Virus record (IMG/VR): IMGVR_UViG_3300021957_000327
Location: 1-22,965 of that record
Direction: 5' to 3' (one strand)
Origin: a virus
DNA: 22,965 nt
Made by a program: the position numbers and the translations under genes. Below are positions 2,951 through 22,683 of the stretch, one piece after another (position 1 is the first letter of the stretch; each line of letters starts with the position of its first letter). The notes below the pieces were generated by a model. It had not been told where the DNA came from, ran no database searches, and was given only the letters and a program-made list of their open reading frames with translations.

Positions 2951-4447
2951 ATGGGTTTATTTGATAGGTTCACTGGCAAAAAACCAGAGAAAGAAGACAA
3001 AACGAAGGTTTTTAAGCGTTCTTACCATGCGGCGAATACTGGCCGACTTTTTGCCGACTATGTTGACTCACAACGGTCTCCAGACAGTGAATTACACCCT
3101 GTAATTACTCGAATGAGGGCCAGATCGCGTGATTTGGCTCGAAATAACGAATATGCAAGGCGATATTTTAACTTATTGAAGACAAATGTCGTTGGGCAGT
3201 ATGGCTTTAAGCTACAAGTTAAGGCGTTAGATCCGCGCGGAGCCTTAGACACAGACGGAAATTCTGCTATTGAGCAGGCGTTCAAGGTATGGGGTAAGCG
3301 CGGAAATTGCACAGCAGACGGCAAAATGGGCTGGATTGACGTGCAAAAGATGGTTATGGAAGGTTTGGCGCGTGATGGTGAGGTCTTTGTCATCAAGCAC
3401 AGAGGTAATTCGTTCCATGATTCATTCACTCTTGAGTTTATCGAGCCAGATCAGGTCGATGAAGAGAAAAATGAGCGCTTAGACAACGGCAGAGAGATCA
3501 GAATGGGCGTGGAGCTTGATAAGTTCCGCAAGCCTATTGCGTATCACCTTCTTACTTCGCATCCAGGCGATTATGACTTTGCAAGCATGGTTAAGTCGCC
3601 AAAGCACAAGAGAGTGCCTGCTGATCGTGTCATACACGTATTTAGTGCTAATCGAGCTGGTCAAACTCGCGGTGAGCCTTGGATGGCTCCAGCGATGGGA
3701 AGCATCAAGCAGTTAAACGGCTGGCGAGAGGCTTCTATCATTGCGGCTCGCATGGGCGCGTCAAAGATGGGCTTTTTCACGTCGCCTGGCGGTGATGGAT
3801 TTGTAGCGGATGAGATGGACGGCAATATACCGTTAATTGATGCCCAGCCAGGTAGCTTCCACCAGTTGCCACAAGGCGTGGACTTGAAGACGTTTGACGT
3901 TGGCTATCCCACGAGTGAGTTTGATAGCTTCCATAAGTCGGTTCTCAAAGGGATATCGTCTGGTCTTGGTGTGTCGTATACCTCATTAGCCAATGATTTA
4001 GAGGCAACGTCTTATAGCTCTATTCGTCAGGGCGCTTTAGAAGAGCGCGACTTCTATAAGAATGTACAGCAGGTAATGATTGATCACTTCGTTCGCCCCG
4101 TATATGAGGCGTGGTTGAATTCTGCAATGGAAGTCGAGTCAGTTTTTATGCCGATGGCGACTTTTGATAAGTTCTCTTTAGCGTCAGAGTTCCGTGGTCG
4201 CGCTTGGAATTGGGTTGATCCCATGAAAGAGATGAACGCTGCGGTGCTAGGAATGAAGAACGGCGTATTGAGCCTACAAGATGTAGCGGCACAGTACGGG
4301 AAGGACACAGAAGAGCTTCTCGCAGAGATAAAGCGAGACAAGGATCTTATGGAGCAGTTCGGTATAACTTACGCTCTTGAGCCTTATGGGGCTGTTCAAG
4401 TGGGCATCGAACCTGATATATCAGGAGATGATGATGGCGAAATATAA
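2951..4447 (+). CDS. Portal protein (lambda gpB family)
   Basis: 498 aa. It should form the dodecameric ring at one head vertex through which DNA enters and leaves. Recognisable features: an N-terminal basic stretch with YHAANTGRLFADYVDSQRS, a conserved helical block RARSRDLARNNEYARRYFNL, then TNVVGQYGFKLQVKA, FTLEFIEPDQVD, HVFSANRAGQTRGEPWMAPA and the SYSSIRQGALEERDFYK block. All are typical of lambda-type portals, and the length is close to gpB. The ATG at 2951 follows AGGTAAGG about six bases upstream. Its end overlaps the next gene's start by 14 nt, so translation is probably coupled. No scaffold or protease gene separates it from the capsid gene. Confidence 0.93.
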   Translation: MGLFDRFTGKKPEKEDKTKVFKRSYHAANTGRLFADYVDSQRSPDSELHPVITRMRARSRDLARNNEYARRYFNLLKTNVVGQYGFKLQVKALDPRGALDTDGNSAIEQAFKVWGKRGNCTADGKMGWIDVQKMVMEGLARDGEVFVIKHRGNSFHDSFTLEFIEPDQVDEEKNERLDNGREIRMGVELDKFRKPIAYHLLTSHPGDYDFASMVKSPKHKRVPADRVIHVFSANRAGQTRGEPWMAPAMGSIKQLNGWREASIIAARMGASKMGFFTSPGGDGFVADEMDGNIPLIDAQPGSFHQLPQGVDLKTFDVGYPTSEFDSFHKSVLKGISSGLGVSYTSLANDLEATSYSSIRQGALEERDFYKNVQQVMIDHFVRPVYEAWLNSAMEVESVFMPMATFDKFSLASEFRGRAWNWVDPMKEMNAAVLGMKNGVLSLQDVAAQYGKDTEELLAEIKRDKDLMEQFGITYALEPYGAVQVGIEPDISGDDDGEI

Positions 4448-6920
4448 AGGTGAAGACATTGATACTAAACCAACTGAAGGCATGGTTGCAGAAGCTAGAC
4501 GAGGTCTTGATTGGCGCAAGGAACACGGTCGGGGCGGTACTGAGGTCGGCATTGCTCGCGCTCGTGATATTGTTAATGGGCGGGAGCTTTCTCCTAGCAC
4601 TGTGCGTCGTATGTATTCATTCTTTTCTCGACATGAGGTCGATAAGCAAGGAAAGGGATTTAGTAAGGGTGAAGGCTACCCCAGCGCAGGAAGAATCGCA
4701 TGGGCGCTCTGGGGAGGAGACAGTGGATTCTCCTTCTCAAGAAAAATAGTTAAACGACTCGACGCAATAGATGAGAGGTGCGACGAAATGGAAATAGAGA
4801 CTAGAGCAGAACCTGATGGTCTGAAAGTTGGCGACATGGTGAGCTGGAATAGCTCTGGCGGTCGAGCTGAAGGCAAGATTGATCGTATTGAGCGCGATGG
4901 CGATATCAACGTGCCAGACTCTGATTTTACCCTCACAGGTAAAGAAGATGATCCTGCCGCACTCATTACGCTGTACAGAGACGGCGAGGCTACAGAGCGA
5001 AAGGTCGGACACCGATTCTCTGCACTTACTAAGATTAGTGAGCGTTACTATGAAGAAGAGCGGCATATCAAGAACATCACTGAGACTGACGACTCTTATA
5101 TCGTAGAGTTTGGTAAGTCAGAGGAGCCAGAAATGGCTTCAGAAGGAGATGAAGAGCGAGTAGAGAAGCTAGAAGTTACTACTCGCGCTATGCAGATGGA
5201 TGCGTCTCCGATTAAAGAAGATGAGCGACGTGTAAAGATGGCTCTTAGCTCTGAGGAGCCTGTAGAGCGATCATTCGGCACAGAAGTGCTGGAGCACTCT
5301 GAGGAAGCTATTGATTTGAGCTTCTTGAATTCAGGTAGAGCACCCGTTCTCCTCGACCACAACCCCGAAAAACAGGTGGGGATTATAGAATCTGTCGAAC
5401 TCGATGGCTCGGCACGGCGTCTCCGTGCGACGGTGCGTTTTGGAAAGAACGGACTTGCTAGAGAGGCATTCGACGATGTTGTTGATGGCATTCGCGCAAA
5501 TGTATCCATTGGATACGCTATCAACAAAATGGAACGTCAAGGCAATGACAAGTATGTCGCTAAGTCTTGGCGTCCAGTAGAAGCTAGTTTGGTGTCTATC
5601 CCAGCGGATGTCTCCGTTGGTGTTGGTCGGTCAAGCGAGCCTACACCCGAACCCGTAACCATAACTGTTAGAGAGGAAACTCCTATGACAAATGAAGTAG
5701 ATGTTGCGGCCATCGAGTTAGAAGCTCGTAAAGCCGCCCAAAAAGATGCTGCTCAAATCGTTGAGCTTGGTGCGCGTCACAATCAGTCTGACATGGCTAA
5801 GAGAGCAATCTCTGATGGTCGTTCGGTAGCTGAGTTCCGTGGCGAATTGCTTGATGTAATCGGTTCAGAGCGTGCTCTGGAGTCGCAAGACATCGGCTTG
5901 ACCAGTAAGGAAGTTAAGCGCTTCTCTATTGTTCGCGCTATTCACGCTTTGGCCAACCCAACTGACCGTCGTGCTCAAGAAGCCGCCGCATTCGAGAAAG
6001 AGTGTTCGGAAGCTGCTGCCGCTGAGTTCGGTCGTTCTGCACAGGGAATCATGCTTCCAACCGACGTTCTGCGTACTTGGAAACGTGACCTTAACTCAGC
6101 AGACGAAGCTGACTTGTTTGGCGAAGATTATCGCGGACAAGACTTCGTTGATGTACTGCGTAATGCTTCAAGCGTAATGCAGGCTGGTGCTCGTACTCTG
6201 AATGGCCTTTCTGGTGATGTCCGCATCCCCAAGAAGACAGCAGCGGCGTCAGCGGCTTGGATTGCTACCGAAGGTGGTGCTTCAACTGAGTCAGAGATGA
6301 CTGTCGGCAATATCGCGATGACACCTAAGACTCTGGGTGCTTTCACAGATGTGACTCGTCAGTTGATGATTCAGTCAAGCATGGACGTAGAATCTTTGAT
6401 TCGTGACGATCTCGCTACAGCAATCGGTCTTGCGATTGACTTAGCAGGTCTTGAGGGATCAGGATCAAGCGGCCAGCCTACTGGTATCTTGAACACTTCT
6501 GGCATCAATAGCGTTACTAACTTCGCGGCGGCTAATCCTACCTTCGCAGAAGTGGTAACTCTTGAGACTGCGCTTGCAGAAGACAATGCGCTCATGGGCA
6601 ACTTGGCATACATTCTGCCAGCGGCCATGTACGGTGCATTGAAGACTACTGAGAAAGCATCAGGAACAGCGCAGTTCGTAGTAGAGCCTGGCGGCACTAT
6701 CAACGGACACCGTGCGATTGTTTCTAACCAAGGAACTGCTGGAAACCTTTACTTCGGTAACTTCAGCGATCTTCTGGTTGGCTTCTTCGGCGGTCTTGAC
6801 CTAGTAGTTGATCCATACACTGCATCAACAAGCGGAACTGTCCGTGTAGTTGCACTGCAATCTATGGACTTAGCTGTACGTCACGCTGTTAGCTTCGCTA
6901 AGGGTAACGACGGAGCCTAA
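4434..6920 (+). CDS. Prohead protease-major capsid fusion (HK97 type) with two extra N-terminal domains
   Basis: 828 aa. The ATG at 4434 follows AGGAG (4423-4427) by six bases; ATGs at 4428 and 4431 lie too close to it. Domains in order: residues 1-105, an unnamed phage domain (EARRGLDWRKEHGRGGTEVG, YPSAGRIAWALWGGD); 130-200, a tudor-like domain resembling the DUF2945/Hva1 family (LKVGDMVSWNSSGGRAEGKI); 267-402, an S78-type prohead protease with likely catalytic H309 (LLDHNPEKQVG) and S358 (IRANVSIGY); 418-828, an HK97-fold capsid protein preceded by a helical delta/scaffold segment. Capsid hallmarks include WIATEGG, AFTDVTRQLMIQSSMDVE and GSGSSGQPTGILN. No stop or frameshift separates protease from capsid. 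Protease should cut the delta part during head maturation. A good internal start at 5685 could make capsid alone. Confidence 0.92.
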   Translation: MAKYKGEDIDTKPTEGMVAEARRGLDWRKEHGRGGTEVGIARARDIVNGRELSPSTVRRMYSFFSRHEVDKQGKGFSKGEGYPSAGRIAWALWGGDSGFSFSRKIVKRLDAIDERCDEMEIETRAEPDGLKVGDMVSWNSSGGRAEGKIDRIERDGDINVPDSDFTLTGKEDDPAALITLYRDGEATERKVGHRFSALTKISERYYEEERHIKNITETDDSYIVEFGKSEEPEMASEGDEERVEKLEVTTRAMQMDASPIKEDERRVKMALSSEEPVERSFGTEVLEHSEEAIDLSFLNSGRAPVLLDHNPEKQVGIIESVELDGSARRLRATVRFGKNGLAREAFDDVVDGIRANVSIGYAINKMERQGNDKYVAKSWRPVEASLVSIPADVSVGVGRSSEPTPEPVTITVREETPMTNEVDVAAIELEARKAAQKDAAQIVELGARHNQSDMAKRAISDGRSVAEFRGELLDVIGSERALESQDIGLTSKEVKRFSIVRAIHALANPTDRRAQEAAAFEKECSEAAAAEFGRSAQGIMLPTDVLRTWKRDLNSADEADLFGEDYRGQDFVDVLRNASSVMQAGARTLNGLSGDVRIPKKTAAASAAWIATEGGASTESEMTVGNIAMTPKTLGAFTDVTRQLMIQSSMDVESLIRDDLATAIGLAIDLAGLEGSGSSGQPTGILNTSGINSVTNFAAANPTFAEVVTLETALAEDNALMGNLAYILPAAMYGALKTTEKASGTAQFVVEPGGTINGHRAIVSNQGTAGNLYFGNFSDLLVGFFGGLDLVVDPYTASTSGTVRVVALQSMDLAVRHAVSFAKGNDGA
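5671..5687 (+). promoter_or_regulatory. Internal ribosome site and in-frame ATG for a free capsid protein
   Basis: Within the fusion gene, GAGAGGA (5671-5677) is followed after seven bases by an ATG at 5685 that is in frame (codon 418). Translation from there gives 411 aa: a helical delta/scaffold segment beginning MTNEVDVAAIELEARK and then the whole capsid domain. HK97 gp5 (385 aa, with a roughly 100-residue delta part) has the same plan. The start falls exactly at the boundary between protease and capsid domains, after the Pro/Glu-rich linker EPTPEPVT. Function is inferred from the site's quality and placement, by analogy with nested starts such as lambda C/Nu3. Confidence 0.55.
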
Positions 6921-6929
6921 GGCTAGTAG

Positions 6930-6955
6930 CCCGCCCTTCGGGGCGGGTTTTCTCT
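6930..6955 (+). terminator. Intrinsic terminator after the capsid gene
   Basis: A perfect 7-bp G+C stem, CCCGCCC (6930-6936) and GGGCGGG (6941-6947), encloses the very stable TTCG tetraloop and is followed by TTTTCTCT (6948-6955). It begins ten bases after the capsid stop codon. No promoter is visible between it and the next ATG at 6967, so the next genes depend on read-through. It may also protect the 3' end of the capsid mRNA. Confidence 0.9.
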
Positions 6956-6966
6956 AAGGAGGATGT

Positions 6967-7185
6967 ATGAAATACGAAGTAATTAAGGGTTGTGTAATCA
7001 CTGGTAAGACCTACCGTGCAGGGCAAGTTGTCGAGCTTGATAACAAGCTGGCTGAGTCGCTGATGGGTATTGGTCGCATTGCACCAGCCGATGAGACTAC
7101 GACAGAAAATCGTGCTGTAGGCGTAGAAAACTCAGAAGACAAGCCAAAGACTCGCAAGCGGACTACTAAGGCGAAAGCTAAGTAA
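6967..7185 (+). CDS. Small conserved phage protein with basic tail (hypothetical)
   Basis: 72 aa, unknown function. Residues 1-42 (MKYEVIKGCVITGKTYRAGQ, then VVELDNKLAESLMGIGRIAP) resemble small proteins often found just after phage capsid genes: a short beta hairpin, a V-V-E-L strand and a helix ending in a G-R/K-x-x-P turn. Residues 45-72 are low-complexity, first acidic and then Lys/Arg/Thr-rich (KTRKRTTKAKAK), possibly DNA- or RNA-contacting. AAGGAGG (6956-6962) lies four bases before the ATG, one of the best ribosome sites in the window, which may offset low transcription past the terminator. The stop overlaps the next start (TAATG). A head decoration or completion role is possible but unproven. 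Confidence 0.75.
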   Translation: MKYEVIKGCVITGKTYRAGQVVELDNKLAESLMGIGRIAPADETTTENRAVGVENSEDKPKTRKRTTKAKAK

Positions 7186-7502
7186 TGTCTGTTGAGACGC
7201 TGGATGATCGAAAGGTGTTGTTAGCTGACTTTGGAGTGGCCTGTACTGGCACGACAACTGGCGGCGGCTCTGTGTCGTTTAAGGCGATATATGATGCACA
7301 GCACTCGCTAGAGGAAGCAGGCGGTTTTGTCGCTTTCTCGCTCGATCAGCCGCGTCTTACTTGTGTATCTTCAGAGGTGTCTACTCTAGCGGAGGGGAAC
7401 ACCGTTACTGTGCCGGTCAATTCAGTTAATACCAATTACACAATACGTGTTGTAATGCCAGATGGCACAGGTATAACTGATCTGGCTCTGGAGAAGCAAT
7501 GA
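7185..7502 (+). CDS. Probable head-tail attachment protein (gpFII-like)
   Basis: 105 aa, mostly beta. The N terminus LADFGVACTGTTTGGGSVSF followed by KAIYDAQ resembles FII-type attachment proteins (lambda FII is 117 aa), in which a strand pair, a G-[VI]-[FY]-D-like motif and a C-terminal beta region (GNTVTVPVN, TNYTIRVVMPDGTG) form the surface to which the tail binds. The position between capsid and tail-terminator genes matches lambda FII. The start overlaps the previous stop by one base (TAATG) and the end overlaps the next gene by four (ATGA), so the three genes are probably translated in series. Sequence likeness is modest; position carries much of the call. Confidence 0.6.
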   Translation: MSVETLDDRKVLLADFGVACTGTTTGGGSVSFKAIYDAQHSLEEAGGFVAFSLDQPRLTCVSSEVSTLAEGNTVTVPVNSVNTNYTIRVVMPDGTGITDLALEKQ

Positions 7503-12507: not shown

Positions 12508-12880
12508 TATCTTTGCCGCGCTCAATCGCTGGCAAAAGGGAGAGTTTCAATACGGCACGCGAGATTGCGTAGCTTTCACTGTGTTCATGATTCGAGAACT
12601 GCATGGCGTTGATTACCGTGATGAGCTGGTGTACGCCACGGAAGAACAAGCCTACGAAATCATTCGAGCGCACAATGGATTTATGAATCTTATCGACAGC
12701 GTTCTTGGTCATCCTGCTGACTATCCCACGGTTGGTCATCCCGTAATGTGTGATTTACCTCGTATCGGACTGCTGATGGGGTTAAAATTGGGGGAGTCAG
12801 TGGCCGTTGTCACTAAGCGCGGACTCACGACGATTTCAGATAGATACATCGTAAGGAGTTGGGAATGCCATCAGCAGTAG
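12461..12880 (+). CDS. NlpC/P60-like tail protein (DUF6950-like; gpK position)
   Basis: 139 aa with the GTG start at 12461; the start is uncertain because the frame is open from before 12422. The conserved core is IFAALNRWQKGEFQYGTRDC followed by VAFTVFMIRELHG, with the Asp-Cys pair expected at the active end of an NlpC/P60-type cysteine-peptidase fold. The region EEQAYEIIRAHNGFMNLIDS and the later GHPVMCDL and GESVAVVT strands fit DUF6950-type phage proteins. A catalytic histidine is not obvious; GHPVMCD is a candidate. In lambda the K protein at this spot carries an NlpC/P60 domain thought to act during tail-tip assembly or cell-wall crossing. Overlaps the upstream gene by 47 nt and the next by 16. 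Confidence 0.7.
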   Translation: MAAEVAQDQIQATSPSIFAALNRWQKGEFQYGTRDCVAFTVFMIRELHGVDYRDELVYATEEQAYEIIRAHNGFMNLIDSVLGHPADYPTVGHPVMCDLPRIGLLMGLKLGESVAVVTKRGLTTISDRYIVRSWECHQQ

Positions 12881-15800
12881 CCGCTACAGTTACTTTCTTA
12901 AAAACGGTTGGTTTGGCAGTAGGCGGACTAACTATTAGTGGTGGCACAGCTTTGGCTATTGGTGCTGCTACTGTAGTTGCTGGCGCTATAGCGGCCCAGA
13001 AGCTCATATCGTCTTTATATTCAGTTCCTAGTCTTGATAGCGACAGTAGTCGTCAAGCGACTGTGAGAGGCACTGTAGAGCCTCAGAAGCTCATTTACGG
13101 TGAAGCTCTAGTATCTGGCCCTATTAGCTTTGTTGGCGTTGCAGGCACTGATAACCGCGATCTGTATCACTCTATTGTTCTTGCCGGTCATCCTTCTGAC
13201 TCGATCTCAGATATCTACTTTGACGATGAAAGAATCCAGAGCGCACACATAAACGGATCTGGCAATGTCACGACAGGCGTATTTGGCCCGAAAGATGGCA
13301 CAACTATCTGTGTTATAAGGAAGCTAACAGGAGGTCAGACCACAGCAGATTCCGTGTTAGATGGCGCTTTTAACACTATCAATTCTAGTGAGCACATCGG
13401 GACTAACCTTACTTACATTGTCACTAAGTTTACGCTGACTGAAAACAGCCAAGAGACTTGGGACAAATTCCTGCCGAATGACATTAAAGCTCTCGTTAAG
13501 GGTAAGAAGGTATATGACCCACGGCAGGACAGCACAAGCACGCATTACGACGCGAGCGTAGGTGTTTCTACCCAACGGTCTACGAACTCAGCGACGTGGG
13601 CTTGGTCAGATAACCCAGTCTGGTGTCTTGTTGACTATCTCACGGATGACCGTTTCGGTATGGATATCGACTTAGATCGTATTGATCTGAGCAAGGCGGT
13701 CGATGCTGCCGATATATGCGACGTGGCAGTAAGCGTGCCTGGAGGCGGAGAGAGTCGCTATACCTGTAATGGTGTGATCTTCGGGACTGCGACTCACAAA
13801 GCAAACATCAATAAGATTCTATCGTCTATGAATGGAATGCTTACCTATACTAACGGTAAGTATGTCATCAGAGCAGGTGCATTTGAGTCAGTCGGCACGG
13901 GAATGACGCTGACTGAAGATCACATGACTGGGCCTGTTAAGCTGAAGACCTCGTTTGAGCGTAATGAGCGCTTTAACACCATCACAGGTACTTTCGTTGA
14001 CCCTGAGAAGAACTTCAAAGAGATAGAGTTCCCAAAGGTACAGATCACTAGCGCATTGACTCGTGACAACAGTGAAGAGCTGACACGCGAGCTTAAACTG
14101 AGCATGACCAATAGCCGGTACATGGCCCAGAGGATTGCTCATAAGCTAATACAGCTTAGTGACCTACAGAAGGTGCTGACTTTCCCGACTAACTTGGCTG
14201 GCGTAAATATATCAGTCGGTGATCGTGTCAACGTGACGCTTTCTGAGTTTGGCTATACGAACAAGACCTTTGTCTGTCTAGGATGGACGCTTAGTGAATC
14301 AGGCTCTGGCGGTGTAAACCTTACGCTGCGGGAAGATGACTCTTCATCTTATTCAGACTTGGCAGTATCTGGCTATTCCACGGTTACTCCTGCGGGCGGT
14401 ATACAACAGGGTTTCTTCGGCGTTCCTGATCCTAGCGGTTTGAGTGCTACGGCTCATGTAGAAAGCATTGAGTTAGATTGGACTAACCCAGCTAACATGA
14501 CTGGCATTATCGCTATCGAGGTGTTTGCTTCACCTAATTCGAGCTGGTCAAGTGCAGTCAAAATTGGTGAGACGATTGGTACGCAATTTGTTCACGACGA
14601 ATCAAATGGTGTCGATCCTATTGTCGAGAACGATCAGCGTTATTACTGGGTGCGGGCGCGTCGATTCCCATCGGGTGAAGGATCTGATGCTGTATCAGAC
14701 AGAAACCCTGATAGTGATACCAGTACCATACAGGCTACCAAGGGCGCACTCGGCGATCTTTCTGGGTTAGATACTGTCGGTGATTCGCAGATTGACGATA
14801 ACGCCGTTACTAATAGAACGATTGCAGATGACGCAGTCGATACTGATCAGATCAATGATGGTGCTGTAGATACGGATCAGATAGCGAACGACGCCGTCGA
14901 TATCACCAAGATCGCAAACACGCTAGAGACAACAAACTTCAGCACCACCAACGGAACGGGCTGGCAAATAAAGACTGACGGCACGGCTACGTTTAACGAC
15001 GTAAATGTCAGGGGCGAAGTAGTTGCAACACAGCTTAACGTGCAGGACGCAACGATATCGGGAAGCCTCAAAGCGAATGAGCTATCAGACGGCATTGTAA
15101 AGATAACTAGCGTCTCGCAAGAGGTATGGAACGAGATTGAAAGTAGGGTTGGATCTACGACAGGAAGCACGGGGTTTTTCGAGGCGGCATCAGGCAATCT
15201 TACTGGTGGGGACTTAACCCTTACCACAGCATCAACAAAGGCTCACGCGACAGGCCAAACTGTATATTTTGAGTTAGACGCTGTTTACTTTTGGTCTAGC
15301 GCTACAAGCGTCAGCGGTAATGATCTTTTACTAGACGTGAAATTTCAACACAGTACCGACAACGTCACATATACAACCGTCAACACCACACAAATAACCG
15401 TTGAGCGTCATAACTACTTTAACGGTTTTATGTATGACATTGATAACAGTGTTCAGTATCAGCTAACGGGATTGGCCGCTGGCAACTACTATTTCCGTGT
15501 TTCACTTGAGCCAGTAGGCGCAACCCCCAACGCTTTCTCTATTGCTTACCTTGGTGTCCCTGTTTCCTTTGAGGTAAACGAGATTGGAACTGGGTCGGTA
15601 TCGACAGGCGGCAATGCTGACACGCTAGACAACCTCGACTCGACAGCGTTCCTGCGATCAAACACAAATGACACGTTTGACGGCGACCTTACAATTACAG
15701 GTCAGCTAATACTAAACGGCAGTATTGACCAGTACAACGTCACAGATTTGGACGTGACCGACAAGACGATAACCGTGAACAGTGGCAACACGCAGTCATT

Positions 15801-18800
15801 GAGCGACGGCGCTGGCCTTATAGTAGATCGGGGTAGTGCAGCGGATGCGTCTATTACTTGGGATGAGACAAACGACAAGTTTACGGTCACAGACGAGTTC
15901 TATGCGCCGACGATAGCTGGAGACGATTTAGTTCTAAGGGAGTGGACTGGCAATTCTGCGTATGGGTCATTAGCGCACAAAGACCAATCTGGCGTTGAAT
16001 ACATGATCATTAGCCAAGACAACCACACCTTCATATCGGCGACGACAGGGTACGACGTAAAAATCAGGGGCGGAAATAACACCTCAACGCATGAGATTGT
16101 TGTCTACCCAGACCAAGATGCTACTGCAAGCGGAAATAAGATTTGGCATGGTGGCGACTTCACCTCCACGAACATAAGCAACTGGAACACAGCCTACACC
16201 TACAGCCAAGTCGGACACCTGCCGCTTGCAGGAGGCGCGCTTACTGGGGCTCTAACAACCACCGGAATAGATATTAATGGGTCTAGCGGCGATTCTATAT
16301 TAAGAATAAATCCTAATAATGGAAGTTCTTTAGACGCAGTGGCTCAGTGGAATGGCAACGCGCCTATTGGCAGTGAAGGCTTTGAGATTTGGTACGACAA
16401 TAGTGTCGGAGACGTTCATTTACATACAACGTACAACAATCCCGACGCCGCTATTCGCTTCCATACGAGGACAGGCACAAGCAAAGCCACATCTAATGAG
16501 CGGTTTGTTATTTCTGGCGATGGCGACTTCGACTTTAAAAGCGGAGATTTCAGCAATGTCGGCGCAATAGCAACGAGCGGCGATATTACTGTAGGTAGCA
16601 ACAGGAATATCAATCTGTCAGGCGACCTGAAGATGACAGGCACCGACAGCTATATCTGGGTGCCAAATACTTCAAGCGGCTTCACTGGTTTCTATAGTGT
16701 AGATAACGGTGTCGTTGCCCGTTATGAGAACAACACTAACGGCTGGGGCTTCATGGGTTCCCCAGAGGCAAACTATGCCGTTAAGGTGCATGGCGCTTTA
16801 TATGCAACGACAGATATACGATTCGACTCTGCCTTAAAACTAGGCGCTAACACAGTAATAGCGTCAACACGTCGTTTTTATGCTTCTAATGGTACAAGTT
16901 CAAAAGCGGCGTATTCGTTTGACGGTGATTCGGGAACGGGCATTAGTCGCACTGCGGCAGGCCGTATCGACTTCCTATCAAGCGGCGTTGTAAAGGCATA
17001 CATACGAACAGGTACAACTAACCCAATCAGCGACACAATGTATGTGGACGGTCAGCTTGGCGTGAACGGCCAAGTCGTGTGGTCAGGCGGCACTTCAGCA
17101 AATGCTAATGCAGCGTACGGCTGGGGAGATCACAGTACACAGGGGTATCTCACTGCGGAGGCTGACACTTTAGCCACAGTCACAGGGCGCGGGGCTACGA
17201 CTACAAATGCAATCAGTACGGGTGCTATTACTAGCAGTGGCACAAGCACGTTGGGCAACTTACGCTTAACCGACAGTTCTCGTATGGGCTTCGGCACTGT
17301 CAAAGCAGGCGGATCGGTAGGTCACAACAGTACGGATGAAGAGGGAATTTTCTGGCACACGGATAATGTTTACGGCATCTATCGCACTTCCGGTACGTGG
17401 GCGTCACCAAACTATCAGCAACTTAAACTGCGCTGGGCTACAGGCATTGAGCTAGACGGAGGCACTGCTTACGGAAAGTCTGGCGTCAACATTGTAAATG
17501 GCTCAGACCTTCAGATGGGCGGTACAACCTTCGTAGACTCTAGTCGTAACATAACGGCAGGCACTATCTCTAGTGGTGCTATTACAAGTACAGGCAATAT
17601 TAGTATTCCTGTTGCAAGTAAACTTTATTTTGATGGCGGTGTTCATACCTATATAAGTGAAGATATAGATGATAGGTTGCGTTTCTTTGTAGGTGGTGCT
17701 GAGTTTATGCGCTTCACCGAAACAACAAGCAATCTTGTTCACTTTTATCAAAACGTCAGTACAACTGGAAACCTTGTTGTAGGGGGAGATGTTACCGCTA
17801 CTGGATATCTACAGGCGACTAGCTATCTCTATACCCGAAATGATTTGCGCGTTTTAAATGCCGCAGGAACTGGTTGGACTACATGGGGTACAAGAAGCAA
17901 TGGTAATTACAATCTAAATGTAGGAACTATCTCCTCGGGCGCTATTACAGCAACAGGTAATATCACAACTTCCGGCAGCATTACTTCCACAGGAACCTTC
18001 ACAAGCACCAATCTGGCGGCAACAGGGACTGTAAGCGGCGATCAATTTAGAGCGAGTTTAGGAACTCAAAGCGCGCCAGCCTATACGTTCAAGAATGACG
18101 ACGACACAGGATTTTATGGCGGTGGAAATACAGTCTACGGCGTTACTGGTGGTCAAAAGCGTCTCACCTTAAACGCGTCAGGCGTATCTGCTCACAACGA
18201 TCTCATCGTTTTAACGGGCAAGCTGAAATTTGGCACCGTTGATGTTATCGATGCAAGTCGCAACATTTCGGCAAGTGCGATTACCGCAACCACACTAAAA
18301 GAAACTGACGGAGGTGACGGTTTTACTGAGATCGGCTCAAGTAACTTTGGTTATTTTAGCTGGGGTGTGGAGATAGCAAACCCAAGCGCCGGCTATCGTG
18401 CTATACGTTTCGCAGGGAAGAAAAAATACTTTGTACTAGAGGCCGACGTACTAGGCACTAGCAACGCTAACCACACCGGTATGTTCTGGGGCAACGCCGA
18501 TGGCACCTCGATCTATGCAGGAAGCACAACGGGTTATAAAACCACTCACCAAAACACAAGCTCATTTCACATACGAGACATCAACGGCAACGCAAACCAA
18601 GAGACATATAACCCTGGATTCTCACCGAGCGACGGTGCATGGCACCATCAGAAGATTGCAGCAACGCCTGACGGATACGTGCGAGTCTGGATTGACGGCG
18701 ATCTGAAGTTTGAGGAGACGGGATACATACCTTCAGCCGCAGGTTATCTCGGATTTATTAATTATCAAGGGACTTTGCGCTTTGCCAATATTCGTTGCCG

Positions 18801-21800
18801 AACAATTAACGAGGATGAGTCGCAGCACTTTAGCAATAAAATCACGAGTGCCTCTGCACCGTATGCTAGTGGCGATCGCTTTATCAAGATTGCAAACAAC
18901 ACTGCTAGTGCAGCGGGAACTCTTGTTACAGCGGACAATGGCAATACATGGCTAAACGCGGACGGCGGGAAAGACTTGTGGCTCAACTGGTACTCACTAA
19001 ATAGTCCGGCAAGCAAAGCCGATTTGCAAGTAGGAAATGGATCGGGCGGCGCTTCAATCTTAACCGTTGCCGGTACTAATAACAGAGTCGGAATTAACGA
19101 CAGCTCTCCATCTTTTTCCTTAGATGTTAACGGCAGTATGAGAATTACTGGCGATGCCTTGACGAGTACGCTGTCCGTAGGCTCACAGATTGGCAGTCGA
19201 TCCAACGCTTTGAGCGTAGATAACAATGATAACTCTAGTCCAATCGCGGCAAAAAGTGAACAAGCAACCGTGTTTAGTGTACTTCCGTGGGATTCTGGCG
19301 AGACGTATATTGCAAGCGGCATTTATTATGACGACGGATCGTGGGTTCATGCGTCAGCAAACACTAAAAACTGTTTGCTTAGGATTGGTGGCGACAAAGT
19401 AAGCTGGTATTCCTCTGATAATAGTTCTGGCAGTTGGAACGTCGCTTCGGATCAAATTCTATGGGACAGCACGGGAGTTTGGAAAAACGCCGTAGACACA
19501 GGAAGTGCAATTACGTCAGGTGGCGCAGTTACAGCGGGTAACGGATCGACTTCACTAGGTTACTACGTCGGTACAACTCAGGTCATCCAAGGTTCGACGC
19601 GCAATTTATTAAATATTGGCACAGCGTCGTTAGGCAAAACGACAATCAAGCCAAGCGGTTACATAAACAGCCCCACTGACCACGCGGCTCTTAACATTGG
19701 TCGCGCTAGTGGCGGTGAGACTCGTGCGATTGATATTTGGGGGGACTGGAGTTCAGGGGAAAGTAAGTCGATAACCGCGAACTACGGTACGTCCACGACT
19801 GCAATGGTCGGTCAGATAAACTTTGCTCACAAACCGACATCCAACACTACGGGGTCAAGTATTCGGTTCGGCAAGCTATTCCACGGAGGAGATTCGTCGC
19901 TCTACACAATGGAATTGCACAGCGAAAGCACTTCGCTTGGCTACTTAAACATCAATCGCGATATGGTGCAGCTTGGACAAGACAGCACCTATACAGGAAC
20001 GTATGCGACTATAGGGTTTGGCGGCAGAACCAACGGGTATAACAGAGTTTTTGGTTCCACCGGCACTGCCGATGGTCTTTTCCTTGCCTCAGCAACAGGT
20101 AGAGGAGTATTTGTTAGAACAAATGGTGCTAGCACAGACACATTCAGCTTTACCGCCGCAGGCGCTTTTCAAGTTGCTGGCACAACCGTCATCGACTCTA
20201 GCCGCAACATCACAGCAGGCGCCATCGCCGCAACTTCGGTTGACAGTGGTGGAGCGGTAACTGGTAGTAGCTTTACAGCAGATCAGGGCAATAGAACTGT
20301 AGCAATCAGCAACGGCACCATGACAATGAAAGGTAGCACCGGAGGGTGGGCGTTTGGTCTATACGCTCTTGGTAGCTCAAATACTAATCATGGAGGCTTT
20401 GGCTTTTATGGAGGCGCTGACGCGTTTACCTATTACTATATTGGAGCAAGTTATAACAACCCCACCAACTTTAGGTTCTATAAAAGTGGTCAGCTAAACA
20501 TAGGAACCAACACGATCCTAGATTCCAGCCGCAACCTGACCAATATCGGCACCATCTCCTCAGGCGCTATTACTAGCAGTGGCTCGGTAACAGCAACCAC
20601 AATTAACAACGCAACGGGAGCCGTTCTTAATTTAGGTAACAGCACCTACACAATAATAAACAACCCAGAAAACAGTGTTGCTTTGTATTTGGGAGACAGC
20701 GCCGACAGAAGCAACTATTACCAAAACAACGTTCATCACTTTAGGCACACAAACGCCACTACTTATTATTTAAGTTTGGACGGTACAGGAGCAAACATCC
20801 GTTCGGGCGGACTACAAATCAGCGGAACGGAAACCATCTCATCAACGCGCCGATTTTACGCATCTAATGGAACATCGGTAAAAGCCGCCTATTCTTTTTC
20901 TGACGAGACAAATACAGGATGGTACAAGCCAGCCGCAGGCGAGATCAAATTCATAGGTCAAAGCGTTGAACGCTTGCATATTACTAGCTCAGGCGAAGTG
21001 CAAGTTACCGATGGCCAATTAAGAATTACTAACGATGCCACGTCCGTTGACGCGCTAATCATGGGTAGCGGCACACAAACCGCATACACGAACGTTATTT
21101 GGTCGAGTAACAGCGGCACAGCGCAAATATGGAAAGCAGGAAGTCTCTACACCTCTTATGGTGGTACGAGCGCCATGAACATCTACAACAGTAACGGCAA
21201 GATTTCTTTTCATCCTTTCGGAACTGCAAACGTCGTGGAGATCGATGCTAGCTCTCTCGCTTTGGGCGCTGGAAAAACGATTAGGATGCTAAGTACAAGC
21301 AGCACCCTTATTTCTCACGGATCTTATACAGATGCGATTGGCTATAACGCAAGTTATGGAACCTATATCGGTGCGGGCAGTCGGTATGTGTATTCTGGAA
21401 GCTCATCAACGGGTAACGGCGGCTCTCACCCTTATTATTCTAATGGCGCAACAATCTCAAACATTACACACGACGCAGGCCAGATTAACAACTCGTATGC
21501 AGGCCAGCATTATATTAACGTCGGGAATACAGGTAACGGAGGTTTGCGCGTATCAGGAAGCGCTACAAGCGGCCCTCAAATCGGCATTCTCTCTACTGCA
21601 ACAGGTGGCACGCAGTGGCAGTTAATCTCTAACGGCTCGGGCAATACTGACGGCGCTGGTCGTTTACAGATCTGGAATTCAACTAACAGCCACGCCGCCG
21701 CGACGTTTGGTCAAAATGGTGCAACACCAATAAAATTTTATAACAATAAGTTTTTGTTAGCAGCTTCAAATATTGGCATTGGAAAAGAAGCGAGACCTGA

Positions 21801-22683
21801 GGGTGCTATTTCCTCATCAATTTACAACTTCAAAAATGGCCTTTTCTGGCACAATAACTCCAGTGGTGACTATGGGATTTTCAGAACAGCAGATGGATGG
21901 TCAAGCCCAACTTACTCGCAGTTAAGAATTCAGTGGACTACCGGAATCATACTTGATGGTGGATCGGCGTACGGTAAGTCTGGCGTAAATATTGTTGGTG
22001 GCTCAGACCTACAGATGAACGGCACAACCGTCATCGACTCTAGCACTAACGGCGTATTCAACAACCTTCGCGCAGACGGCGGCAACCTCATCATGGGCGA
22101 TGAGGCGTATTCTACTAGTGCCGATTATGTGGGAATGAAAACCTCTAACATGAGTGGCTCTAGCGACTACATGATCATTTCGGGATTAAGTGACGGAAAC
22201 ACCTATTTAAGCGCAAAAAATGGCGCGAAGGTGTTTGTCCGTGGAGGTGGCAATAACGGATCTAACGAATTAGAGGTGACTGACAGCACTTTTATAAGGG
22301 CGACCACGAGCAACTTTTACTGCACTGGCAATGTCACTGCGTTTTACTCATCCGACAAATCCCTCAAAGAAAATATCCGCGTCATAGACAGGCCAATCGA
22401 AAAGATTAAACAGATCCGTGGCGTCTATTTTGATTGGACAGATGATTACATCAAAGGGCAGTCTGGCGACGGCCAATTACACGTTCGAAAGGATGATGTT
22501 GGCATCATCGCTCAGGAAGTAAAACCTGTACTTGATGAAGTCGTTACGACTCGTGAAGACGGCACTCTAGCTGTTAGATACGAAAAAATGGTTGCCCTTT
22601 GTATTGAGGCAATTAAAGAGCAACAAGATCAGATTGATTCATTAAAAACCATCATAGAGGAAATGAAAAATGGCAATAACTAA
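12865..22683 (+). CDS. Giant tail-tip/fibre fusion: gpJ-like protein with S74 chaperone end
   Basis: 3,272 aa from the ATG at 12865, which follows AAGGAG (12853-12858) by six bases; a TTG at 12859 is unlikely. Residues 1-50 are hydrophobic and Ala/Gly-rich. Residues 70-512 are gpJ-like central tip (IYGEALVSGPISFVGVAG, NPVWCLVDYLTDDRFGMDI, GVNISVGDRVNVTLS). About 521-620 is a fibronectin III-like domain. Residues 643-682 are four 10-residue repeats. From about 690 to 3150 is a Ser/Thr/Gly/Asn-rich fibre of beta repeats (ITSSG, DSSRNIT, AYSF...TG) with YGWGDHSTQGYL near 1415 and a lectin-like domain at about 1816-1982. The end is an S74 chaperone with S3163 and K3168 in SDKSLK, then a coiled coil. 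It binds the host receptor; after cleavage a mature protein of about 3,162 aa remains. In lambda J is 1,132 aa and the side fibre a separate gene. Confidence 0.93.
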   Translation: MPSAVAATVTFLKTVGLAVGGLTISGGTALAIGAATVVAGAIAAQKLISSLYSVPSLDSDSSRQATVRGTVEPQKLIYGEALVSGPISFVGVAGTDNRDLYHSIVLAGHPSDSISDIYFDDERIQSAHINGSGNVTTGVFGPKDGTTICVIRKLTGGQTTADSVLDGAFNTINSSEHIGTNLTYIVTKFTLTENSQETWDKFLPNDIKALVKGKKVYDPRQDSTSTHYDASVGVSTQRSTNSATWAWSDNPVWCLVDYLTDDRFGMDIDLDRIDLSKAVDAADICDVAVSVPGGGESRYTCNGVIFGTATHKANINKILSSMNGMLTYTNGKYVIRAGAFESVGTGMTLTEDHMTGPVKLKTSFERNERFNTITGTFVDPEKNFKEIEFPKVQITSALTRDNSEELTRELKLSMTNSRYMAQRIAHKLIQLSDLQKVLTFPTNLAGVNISVGDRVNVTLSEFGYTNKTFVCLGWTLSESGSGGVNLTLREDDSSSYSDLAVSGYSTVTPAGGIQQGFFGVPDPSGLSATAHVESIELDWTNPANMTGIIAIEVFASPNSSWSSAVKIGETIGTQFVHDESNGVDPIVENDQRYYWVRARRFPSGEGSDAVSDRNPDSDTSTIQATKGALGDLSGLDTVGDSQIDDNAVTNRTIADDAVDTDQINDGAVDTDQIANDAVDITKIANTLETTNFSTTNGTGWQIKTDGTATFNDVNVRGEVVATQLNVQDATISGSLKANELSDGIVKITSVSQEVWNEIESRVGSTTGSTGFFEAASGNLTGGDLTLTTASTKAHATGQTVYFELDAVYFWSSATSVSGNDLLLDVKFQHSTDNVTYTTVNTTQITVERHNYFNGFMYDIDNSVQYQLTGLAAGNYYFRVSLEPVGATPNAFSIAYLGVPVSFEVNEIGTGSVSTGGNADTLDNLDSTAFLRSNTNDTFDGDLTITGQLILNGSIDQYNVTDLDVTDKTITVNSGNTQSLSDGAGLIVDRGSAADASITWDETNDKFTVTDEFYAPTIAGDDLVLREWTGNSAYGSLAHKDQSGVEYMIISQDNHTFISATTGYDVKIRGGNNTSTHEIVVYPDQDATASGNKIWHGGDFTSTNISNWNTAYTYSQVGHLPLAGGALTGALTTTGIDINGSSGDSILRINPNNGSSLDAVAQWNGNAPIGSEGFEIWYDNSVGDVHLHTTYNNPDAAIRFHTRTGTSKATSNERFVISGDGDFDFKSGDFSNVGAIATSGDITVGSNRNINLSGDLKMTGTDSYIWVPNTSSGFTGFYSVDNGVVARYENNTNGWGFMGSPEANYAVKVHGALYATTDIRFDSALKLGANTVIASTRRFYASNGTSSKAAYSFDGDSGTGISRTAAGRIDFLSSGVVKAYIRTGTTNPISDTMYVDGQLGVNGQVVWSGGTSANANAAYGWGDHSTQGYLTAEADTLATVTGRGATTTNAISTGAITSSGTSTLGNLRLTDSSRMGFGTVKAGGSVGHNSTDEEGIFWHTDNVYGIYRTSGTWASPNYQQLKLRWATGIELDGGTAYGKSGVNIVNGSDLQMGGTTFVDSSRNITAGTISSGAITSTGNISIPVASKLYFDGGVHTYISEDIDDRLRFFVGGAEFMRFTETTSNLVHFYQNVSTTGNLVVGGDVTATGYLQATSYLYTRNDLRVLNAAGTGWTTWGTRSNGNYNLNVGTISSGAITATGNITTSGSITSTGTFTSTNLAATGTVSGDQFRASLGTQSAPAYTFKNDDDTGFYGGGNTVYGVTGGQKRLTLNASGVSAHNDLIVLTGKLKFGTVDVIDASRNISASAITATTLKETDGGDGFTEIGSSNFGYFSWGVEIANPSAGYRAIRFAGKKKYFVLEADVLGTSNANHTGMFWGNADGTSIYAGSTTGYKTTHQNTSSFHIRDINGNANQETYNPGFSPSDGAWHHQKIAATPDGYVRVWIDGDLKFEETGYIPSAAGYLGFINYQGTLRFANIRCRTINEDESQHFSNKITSASAPYASGDRFIKIANNTASAAGTLVTADNGNTWLNADGGKDLWLNWYSLNSPASKADLQVGNGSGGASILTVAGTNNRVGINDSSPSFSLDVNGSMRITGDALTSTLSVGSQIGSRSNALSVDNNDNSSPIAAKSEQATVFSVLPWDSGETYIASGIYYDDGSWVHASANTKNCLLRIGGDKVSWYSSDNSSGSWNVASDQILWDSTGVWKNAVDTGSAITSGGAVTAGNGSTSLGYYVGTTQVIQGSTRNLLNIGTASLGKTTIKPSGYINSPTDHAALNIGRASGGETRAIDIWGDWSSGESKSITANYGTSTTAMVGQINFAHKPTSNTTGSSIRFGKLFHGGDSSLYTMELHSESTSLGYLNINRDMVQLGQDSTYTGTYATIGFGGRTNGYNRVFGSTGTADGLFLASATGRGVFVRTNGASTDTFSFTAAGAFQVAGTTVIDSSRNITAGAIAATSVDSGGAVTGSSFTADQGNRTVAISNGTMTMKGSTGGWAFGLYALGSSNTNHGGFGFYGGADAFTYYYIGASYNNPTNFRFYKSGQLNIGTNTILDSSRNLTNIGTISSGAITSSGSVTATTINNATGAVLNLGNSTYTIINNPENSVALYLGDSADRSNYYQNNVHHFRHTNATTYYLSLDGTGANIRSGGLQISGTETISSTRRFYASNGTSVKAAYSFSDETNTGWYKPAAGEIKFIGQSVERLHITSSGEVQVTDGQLRITNDATSVDALIMGSGTQTAYTNVIWSSNSGTAQIWKAGSLYTSYGGTSAMNIYNSNGKISFHPFGTANVVEIDASSLALGAGKTIRMLSTSSTLISHGSYTDAIGYNASYGTYIGAGSRYVYSGSSSTGNGGSHPYYSNGATISNITHDAGQINNSYAGQHYINVGNTGNGGLRVSGSATSGPQIGILSTATGGTQWQLISNGSGNTDGAGRLQIWNSTNSHAAATFGQNGATPIKFYNNKFLLAASNIGIGKEARPEGAISSSIYNFKNGLFWHNNSSGDYGIFRTADGWSSPTYSQLRIQWTTGIILDGGSAYGKSGVNIVGGSDLQMNGTTVIDSSTNGVFNNLRADGGNLIMGDEAYSTSADYVGMKTSNMSGSSDYMIISGLSDGNTYLSAKNGAKVFVRGGGNNGSNELEVTDSTFIRATTSNFYCTGNVTAFYSSDKSLKENIRVIDRPIEKIKQIRGVYFDWTDDYIKGQSGDGQLHVRKDDVGIIAQEVKPVLDEVVTTREDGTLAVRYEKMVALCIEAIKEQQDQIDSLKTIIEEMKNGNN
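14791..14910 (+). repeat. Four in-frame 30-bp repeats (10-residue units) in the tip-fibre hinge
   Basis: Units at 14791, 14821, 14851 and 14881 encode IDDNAVTNRT, IADDAVDTDQ, INDGAVDTDQ and IANDAVDITK, each exactly 30 bases, with I at position 1, D or N at 3 and A-V at 5-6 always kept. They lie between the fibronectin-like domain and the fibre. Similar I-x-D-G-A-V strings occur in many phage tail proteins and probably form a trimeric stalk. Silent bases differ between copies, so they are not recent duplications, apart from the likeness of units 2 and 3. Confidence 0.8.
16861..16986 (+). repeat. Fibre module A, copy 1 (RRFYASNG / AYSF type)
   Basis: Encodes STRRFYASNGTSSKAAYSF, then D-x-D-S-G-T-G-I and a strand ending FLSSG. 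It matches copy 3 (20839-20994) nearly residue for residue over its first 19 amino acids, although most wobble bases differ. The motif 'AYSF, acidic, TG, then a G-x-I-x-F strand' is a common phage fibre repeat. Confidence 0.75.
17344..17550 (+). repeat. Fibre module B, copy 1 (GIFWH...YGKSGVNIV)
   Basis: Sixty-nine residues beginning GIFWH and containing TAYGKSGVNIVNGSDLQM. They align with 21838-22050 (71 residues) with 46 identities by hand count and one two-residue gap. Bases differ at many silent sites. The two copies are about 4.3 kb apart in the same gene. Confidence 0.8.
18061..18183 (+). repeat. Fibre module A, copy 2 (AYTF type)
   Basis: Encodes SAPAYTFKNDDDTGFYGGGN followed by TVYGVTGG, QKRLTLNASG. 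It has the same order as module A copies 1 and 3 (aromatic-rich strand, acidic turn, T-G, strand, then L-x-[LI]-x-[AS]-S-G), but lacks RRFYASNG. This is the most divergent of the three. Confidence 0.6.
18310..18812 (+). other. Lectin-like (LamG/concanavalin-type) domain within the fibre
   Basis: Residues about 1816-1982 of the tip-fibre protein break the repeat pattern. They read as a compact jelly-roll domain: YFVLEADVLGTSNANHTGMF, a loop, SSFHIRDINGNANQETYNPG, then the diagnostic GAWHHQKIAATPDGYVRVWI-DGDL pattern and GYLGFINYQGTLRFANIRCR. The 'W-H-x-[IV]-x-[VI]...-[VR]-V-W-I-D-G' string is typical of LamG and related carbohydrate-binding folds. A role in binding surface glycan is inference. 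Confidence 0.6.
20179..20202 (+). repeat. Exact 24-bp repeat in the fibre, copy 1 (second copy 22021-22044)
   Basis: The bases 20179-20202, encoding GTTVIDSS, occur identically at 22021-22044. This is the only long perfect DNA repeat I found in the fibre; related versions at 17521-17544, 18235-18258 and 20506-20529 differ at several bases. It may mark more recent exchange or a recombination point. Confidence 0.7.
20839..20994 (+). repeat. Fibre module A, copy 3 (RRFYASNG / AYSF type)
   Basis: Encodes STRRFYASNGTSVKAAYSF, then D-E-T-N-T-G-W-Y and AAGEIKF, ending with ERLHITSSG. The first part is nearly identical in protein to 16861-16986, with different codons. The ending resembles that of copy 2. 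Confidence 0.75.
21838..22050 (+). repeat. Fibre module B, copy 2 (GLFWH...YGKSGVNIV)
   Basis: Seventy-one residues aligning with 17344-17550, including SAYGKSGVNIVGGSDLQM and GTTVIDSS. It lies just before the S74 region. The final 24-bp stretch (22021-22044) is shared exactly with 20179-20202, so this copy is a mosaic of module B and a third fibre segment. Confidence 0.8.
22342..22680 (+). other. S74 intramolecular chaperone (self-cleaving) domain
   Basis: The last 110 or so residues of the tip-fibre protein. FYSSDKSLKENIRVID holds the S74 signature; S3163 (nt 22351) and K3168 (nt 22366) are five residues apart, as are Ser911 and Lys916 of the phage K1F endosialidase. GVYFDWTDDY, DDVGIIAQEVKPVLDEVVTT, RYEKMVALCIEAIKEQQDQI and a coiled-coil end follow the family order. 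It should trimerise the fibre, fold it, then cut itself off before S3163. Confidence 0.9.

Follow-up and report, generated by a model that had tools for sequence, protein, structure and literature searches.

Comparative sequence analysis indicates that a conserved and convergently evolved nested start very probably makes a free delta-capsid chain from the protease-capsid fusion gene of this virus, in addition to the full-length fusion. The support is threefold: an internal start that is kept among relatives, a reading frame that is always open across the protease-capsid junction, and the boundary of the mature capsid chain in the roseophage R4C.

The fusion gene and its proposed internal start site

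The window, by which we mean the whole stretch of DNA analysed, comes from IMG/VR, where it is a virus record of 22,965 bases; it has a head module of the lambda type, in which the fusion orders its domains as N-terminal module, Tudor-like domain, S78 prohead protease, delta domain and HK97-fold capsid. The features relevant here are:

508-2358: terminase GpA
2951-4447: portal
4434-6920, + strand: protease-capsid fusion ORF of 828 residues, from the ORF and domain calls
4461-4772, + strand: N-terminal module (N-module), phrog_2859, function unknown, residues 10-113
4830-4976, + strand: Tudor-like domain PF11160, residues 133-181
5304-5609, + strand: prohead serine protease domain, Peptidase_S78 PF04586, residues 291-392
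5598-5702, + strand: disordered hypervariable linker containing the putative internal start, residues 389-423, from AlphaFold2 pLDDT below 50
5670-5677, + strand: putative internal Shine-Dalgarno (SD) sequence AGAGAGGA
5685-5687, + strand: putative internal start codon ATG, Met418 (codon 418 of the fusion), in frame with the 4434 start
5685-6104, + strand: delta (scaffold-like) domain, residues 418-557, mostly helical, from AlphaFold2 secondary structure with the boundary taken from the R4C mature chain
6105-6917, + strand: predicted mature HK97-fold capsid, about residues 558-828, 27.8 kDa, from PF05065, the 8GTA alignment and Foldseek
6928-6951, + strand: rho-independent-terminator-like hairpin just 3' of the capsid, with a 9-bp UUCG stem, -18.4 kcal/mol and a U-rich tail

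The start of the fusion at 4434, from which the protein begins MAKYKGED, has AGGAG upstream and an SD pairing energy of -7.4 kcal/mol. PF04586 and the capsid family PF05065 (residues 569-825) both scored above cut-off in the one open frame, NCBIfam TIGR01543 matched residues 303-397, and phrog_617 matched residues 244-826 with an E-value of 6e-144, so that the gene belongs with the phrog_617-type fusions, which join an S78 protease and an HK97-fold capsid in one frame. The NF045541 model for prohead protease/major capsid protein fusions gave 142.4 bits over residues 262-534 only, below its curated cut-off of 525 bits, and the gene is not a Gifsy-2-type ClpP-like fusion, since its own protease is S78. 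An AlphaFold2 model of the full fusion, of modest confidence (mean pLDDT 67), was disordered at residues 119-122, most of 204-257, 389-423 and 549-569.

The initial annotation had placed an SD and an in-frame ATG at 5685 between the protease and capsid domains, and the domain calls confirm this, the protease matches ending at residue 392 or 397 and the capsid match beginning at 569; the 411-residue downstream chain that it described is likewise correct (43.1 kDa, with the ATG as codon 418). The internal SD pairs at -6.4 kcal/mol, with 7 nt separating AGGA from the ATG, a strength comparable to that of most gene starts of the window and reached by only 25 of the 673 ATGs in the window on both strands. 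Because two further in-frame ATGs of the fusion carry better SDs (4788, -7.1 kcal/mol; 5133, -8.3 kcal/mol), the window sequence by itself gives moderate evidence that is not decisive and could reflect chance; conservation across relatives lifts the predicted internal start far above chance. No sigma-70-like promoter was found near 5685, where site counts were at chance level, and no known Rfam element matched within window positions 4000-7500. The 121 nt around the internal start (5625-5745) fold better than shuffles (z -4.2), the ATG region itself being fairly open; a conserved RNA structure was considered here and rejected, as the relatives vary widely and the consensus structure is essentially nil.

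The terminator-like hairpin after the capsid gene sits within the structural gene run and was missed by a consensus scanner. Several relatives' records annotate a terminator at the same place, and such a hairpin would fit with capsid output being controlled separately. One ORF of 3274 residues (12859-22683), lying after the tail genes, takes up the final 43% of the window.

The predicted delta-capsid product

The delta-plus-capsid plan of the nested chain, also proposed in the initial annotation, is supported by predicted helices, which dominate residues 424-548 of the model, and by the mature chain of R4C, whose major capsid protein vBDshSR4C_006 has a solved structure (PDB 8GTA; PMC10276861). 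The window capsid is related to this protein both by phmmer (E-value 3e-48) and by Foldseek, in which 8gta_A was the top match of the window fusion (E-value 7e-17). The 268-residue chain in 8GTA corresponds to residues 362-629 of R4C, i.e., the C-terminal end of a 629-residue fusion ORF, and therefore a fusion relative ends as exactly the part downstream of delta. The alignment to 8GTA begins at window residue 561, opposite chain residue 4, and the disordered segment 549-569 of the window model brackets the expected cleavage site. Like the window, R4C has a fusion gene of this family that holds an SD-ATG pair (the internal Met is residue 189, preceded by GTTGAGCAATCGGAGGACGCA), but its fusion lacks the N-module and the Tudor-like domain. 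The passages of the R4C paper (PMC10276861) drawn on here do not name the protease part and make no reference to an internal start.

Conservation of the proposed start across relatives

Our set of relatives consisted of 80 close ones, widened by named phages, more viral contigs and bacterial genomes, and held 347 ORFs with a readable junction in 108 clusters at 75% identity; a scan of viral contigs based on R4C gave no matches. Nearly all of the 80 close relatives, two of whose loci begin too late in the contig or hold only part, had, at the junction, an ATG together with an SD-like string while the flanking residues varied, and in all 32 distinct aligned close relatives the AGG and the ATG were invariant, as almost nothing else in the linker is. 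All 347 ORFs read through the junction without a stop, across linkers of 33-103 residues that were always in frame. Split protease and capsid relatives were not found within the family (0 of 347 ORFs), the capsid-only matches sitting at contig ends, and the fused state is common down to about 35-40% identity.

A linker ATG was present in 104 of the 108 clusters, or in 103 when the last 12 linker residues, a conserved delta block, were left out. The five representatives with no usable Met (four without any and one with a Met only in the conserved delta block; L137, L145, L162, L165 and L328) had a GTG at the homologous position or adjacent to it, homology being judged by eye from the neighbouring residues. 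In L328 the GTG is preceded by AAGGAG, and in L165 just 3 of the 47 Val codons are GTG. The check proposed in the initial annotation, conservation of the ribosome site in relatives, thus held in 108 of 108 clusters as an ATG or GTG in the hypervariable linker, present in the cyanophage-like clusters as a start codon alone.

The cyanophage-like group, a presumptive label for the kin of S-CBS1, S-CBS3 and S-LBS1, includes L085, L089, L090 and part of L102-L180. Its clusters keep the ATG or GTG at the junction with no SD, and the 20 nt upstream of the start are nearly devoid of G (3% vs 31%) and weakly structured. Since only 43% of the annotated starts of S-CBS3 have an SD, SD-less starts are common there; initiation at the junction of these clusters is probably SD-independent, and the internal-start mechanism would differ in them.

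We set the cyanophage-like clusters apart and calculated statistics on the other 94. Linker ATGs in these had a median SD of -6.0 kcal/mol, with 85% at -4 kcal/mol or better, compared with a median of -1.9 and 16% for 1254 further in-frame Mets in these genes (p = 3e-39; the clusters are related and not fully independent, so this and the other p-values overstate independence and serve as guides). Selection of the best Met in each linker tilts the result toward a signal, yet tests on the first linker Met alone (82% passing the SD threshold) and on single-Met clusters (90%) agreed with it. Synonymous-codon shuffles gave -4.09 vs -6.19 observed (p = 5e-12), while the control Mets had weaker SDs than their own shuffle expectation. 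The preferred SD-ATG gap was 7 nt, and in the offset profile the mean SD energy came down to about -6 just within one codon of the ATG on either side (-1 to +1), the signal as a whole being confined to offsets of -1 to +2 codons, with the trough centred exactly at the ATG and the SD nearly absent just upstream. As many as 29 residue combinations encoded the SD core, and all three codon phases were used. The mRNA around the site was weakly structured (-6.5 vs -15.4 kcal/mol, p = 4e-38), including within the same linkers (-7.5 at the site vs -13.7). By these measures, the conservation of the candidate site is that of a nucleotide signal and goes further than the encoded protein would demand.

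Additional candidate starts upstream

Besides the site at 5685, in-frame SD-ATG pairs mark two module boundaries of the fusion, at 4773-4790 (Met119, after the N-module) and at 5118-5135 (Met234, before the protease), and the 4788 pair (GAGAGG...ATG) recurs in the window's nearest relatives. The best Met of each locus between the N-module and the protease had a stronger SD than best-of-n synonymous shuffles (-7.2 vs -6.4, p = 2e-6) and weaker mRNA structure (p = 9e-11), the effect being smaller than at the capsid site. As a lead, the first pair (4788) suggests a third product without the N-module. In Roseobacter phage CRP-823 (L083, 1983-2699 and 2659-4911) the N-module is a separate ORF in another frame overlapping the protease-capsid ORF, whereas in the window it is fused.

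Fusions with an unrelated protease, and alternative explanations

Fusions with a ClpP-like protease, which is unrelated to S78, occur in mEp043, mEp213, F10, Fels-1, Ayreon and their IMG/VR kin, and we collected 166 open fusion ORFs of this type in 22 clusters at 85%. All 22 clusters had a linker ATG with an SD at -4 or better (median -6.2 vs -1.7, p = 1.5e-13), the SD exceeded synonymous shuffles (p = 7e-7), and the mRNA at the site was again weakly structured (-6.35 vs -16.2, p = 1e-13). No internal start was annotated in the ClpP-type records that we examined; three of them (L375, L376 and L377) were annotated only as "head maturation protease" or "putative Clp protease," which hides the capsid gene. 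Given the open frame and the kept start in both fusion types, selection appears to keep both the fusion and the free capsid in two independent fusion types. Two Helicobacter prophages (L359, 1386-3146; L360, 1386-3134) have divergent S78 protease-capsid fusions annotated as "hypothetical protein," and both carry SD-ATG pairs at the junction.

Distant relatives with separate genes raise the question of whether the internal start is a relic, i.e., whether separate genes were fused by stop loss and the old capsid start and its SD persist unused. In Cellulophaga phage phi39:1 the protease and capsid genes overlap at TAATG and the 439-residue capsid protein is made from its own start at the protease stop, which also speaks for the nested-start reading; the protease and capsid of BgVeeders33 are likewise separate genes, and the site in the fusions lies where an ancestral capsid start would be. 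We nevertheless regard a relic as quite improbable: the fusion persists to a divergence that gives time enough for an unused signal to decay, yet the SD remains above synonymous expectation, a GTG is found where the ATG is missing, and the unrelated ClpP-type fusions carry the same signal.

Ribosome pausing at SD-like strings has been proposed, and one such string lying exactly at the domain boundary could slow ribosomes so that the protease folds before the capsid, with no initiation. A pause site has no need for a start codon 7 nt downstream, yet every cluster has an ATG or GTG, including the SD-less cyanophage-like ones, and an ATG in weakly structured mRNA points to initiation; this makes a pause site highly improbable. 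Least probable of all, and largely refuted by the shuffle and offset controls, is an artefact of composition in which a Glu/Lys-rich linker yields purine-rich SD-like strings and Mets: KE and EE are indeed the commonest residues under the SD core, and a chance linker Met is expected in about 75 of the 108 clusters, but the signal exceeds synonymous shuffles, draws on many residue combinations in every codon phase, is confined to the codons next to the ATG and is accompanied by a loss of mRNA structure.

Proposed mechanism and its implications

Under the nested-start reading, which we prefer, initiation at 4434 would give the full fusion with the protease as a minority subunit, and initiation at the internal SD and ATG (5670-5687) would give the free 411-residue delta-capsid as the bulk procapsid subunit. 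A few fusion subunits would co-assemble through the common delta-capsid part, placing the protease inside the shell. Once the shell is assembled, a cut by the protease near residue 558 would release both delta and the protease itself, so that a mature capsid subunit of about 271 residues remains. We infer actual initiation, the product ratio, co-assembly, the order of cleavage, stoichiometry and dosage from sequence patterns. The idea of dosage raised in the initial annotation, many capsids and few tethered proteases, would fit the frame that is always open and the start that is always kept.

More broadly, we lean slightly toward the view that tailed-phage protease-capsid fusions are generally nested multi-start genes, in which at least two unrelated protease classes were fused independently, each keeping or evolving a capsid start, and in which the product annotated as "major capsid protein" or "head maturation protease" is the minority one. 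In the window's clade, initiation at 4788 and perhaps at 5133 may yield further protease-capsid chains that lack the N-module, giving a graded, co-assembling set. A nested start would offer a way to explain how a phage with a protease-capsid fusion builds a shell of hundreds of subunits without hundreds of tethered proteases, and it can be put to the test in cultured phages. That two unrelated protease classes show the arrangement suggests that such fusions generally need more free capsid than protease-capsid. In many annotated genomes, the records of these genes probably give an incomplete account of where the capsid genes start, how long they are and what they make, which matters for modelling capsids and for expressing virus-like particles. 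Our searches of the open full-text literature turned up no description of a capsid start inside a protease-capsid fusion; an earlier report may exist, for instance in subscription papers on Gifsy-2 and F10. Nor did we come across gel, proteomics or ribosome-profiling data on any member.

Comparison with known systems

In lambda C/Nu3, and in Mu I/Z, a second, in-frame start nested in the gene of the head protease yields the scaffold. The window shares with lambda the use of one frame with two starts, a long product with the protease and a short product that would be the abundant assembly subunit, and a common C-terminal part for co-assembly; as in lambda, the in-frame start lies inside the protease gene with its own SD and is conserved in relatives. 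The two differ in that the predicted nested product of the window is delta plus the major capsid protein, including the whole HK97-fold capsid, rather than a separate scaffold lacking a capsid domain, and in that the protease is S78-type. Herpesvirus UL26/UL26.5 similarly encodes a nested in-frame short product of the capsid protease gene, and its long form carries the protease into the procapsid; there, however, the short product is a scaffold with its own transcript, whereas for the window we propose an internal ribosome site and a capsid product. Gifsy-2-type composite genes comprise a ClpP-like protease, a central domain and the capsid, and the ClpP fusions of mEp213, F10 and Fels-1 have in common with the window a linker ATG preceded by an SD, although their protease class is unrelated to S78. 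Finally, HK97 has the gp4 protease and the gp5 delta-capsid as separate genes; it shares with the window an S78-type protease and an N-terminal delta, removed at maturation, on an HK97-fold capsid, whereas the window fuses protease and capsid and appears to have kept the capsid start inside.
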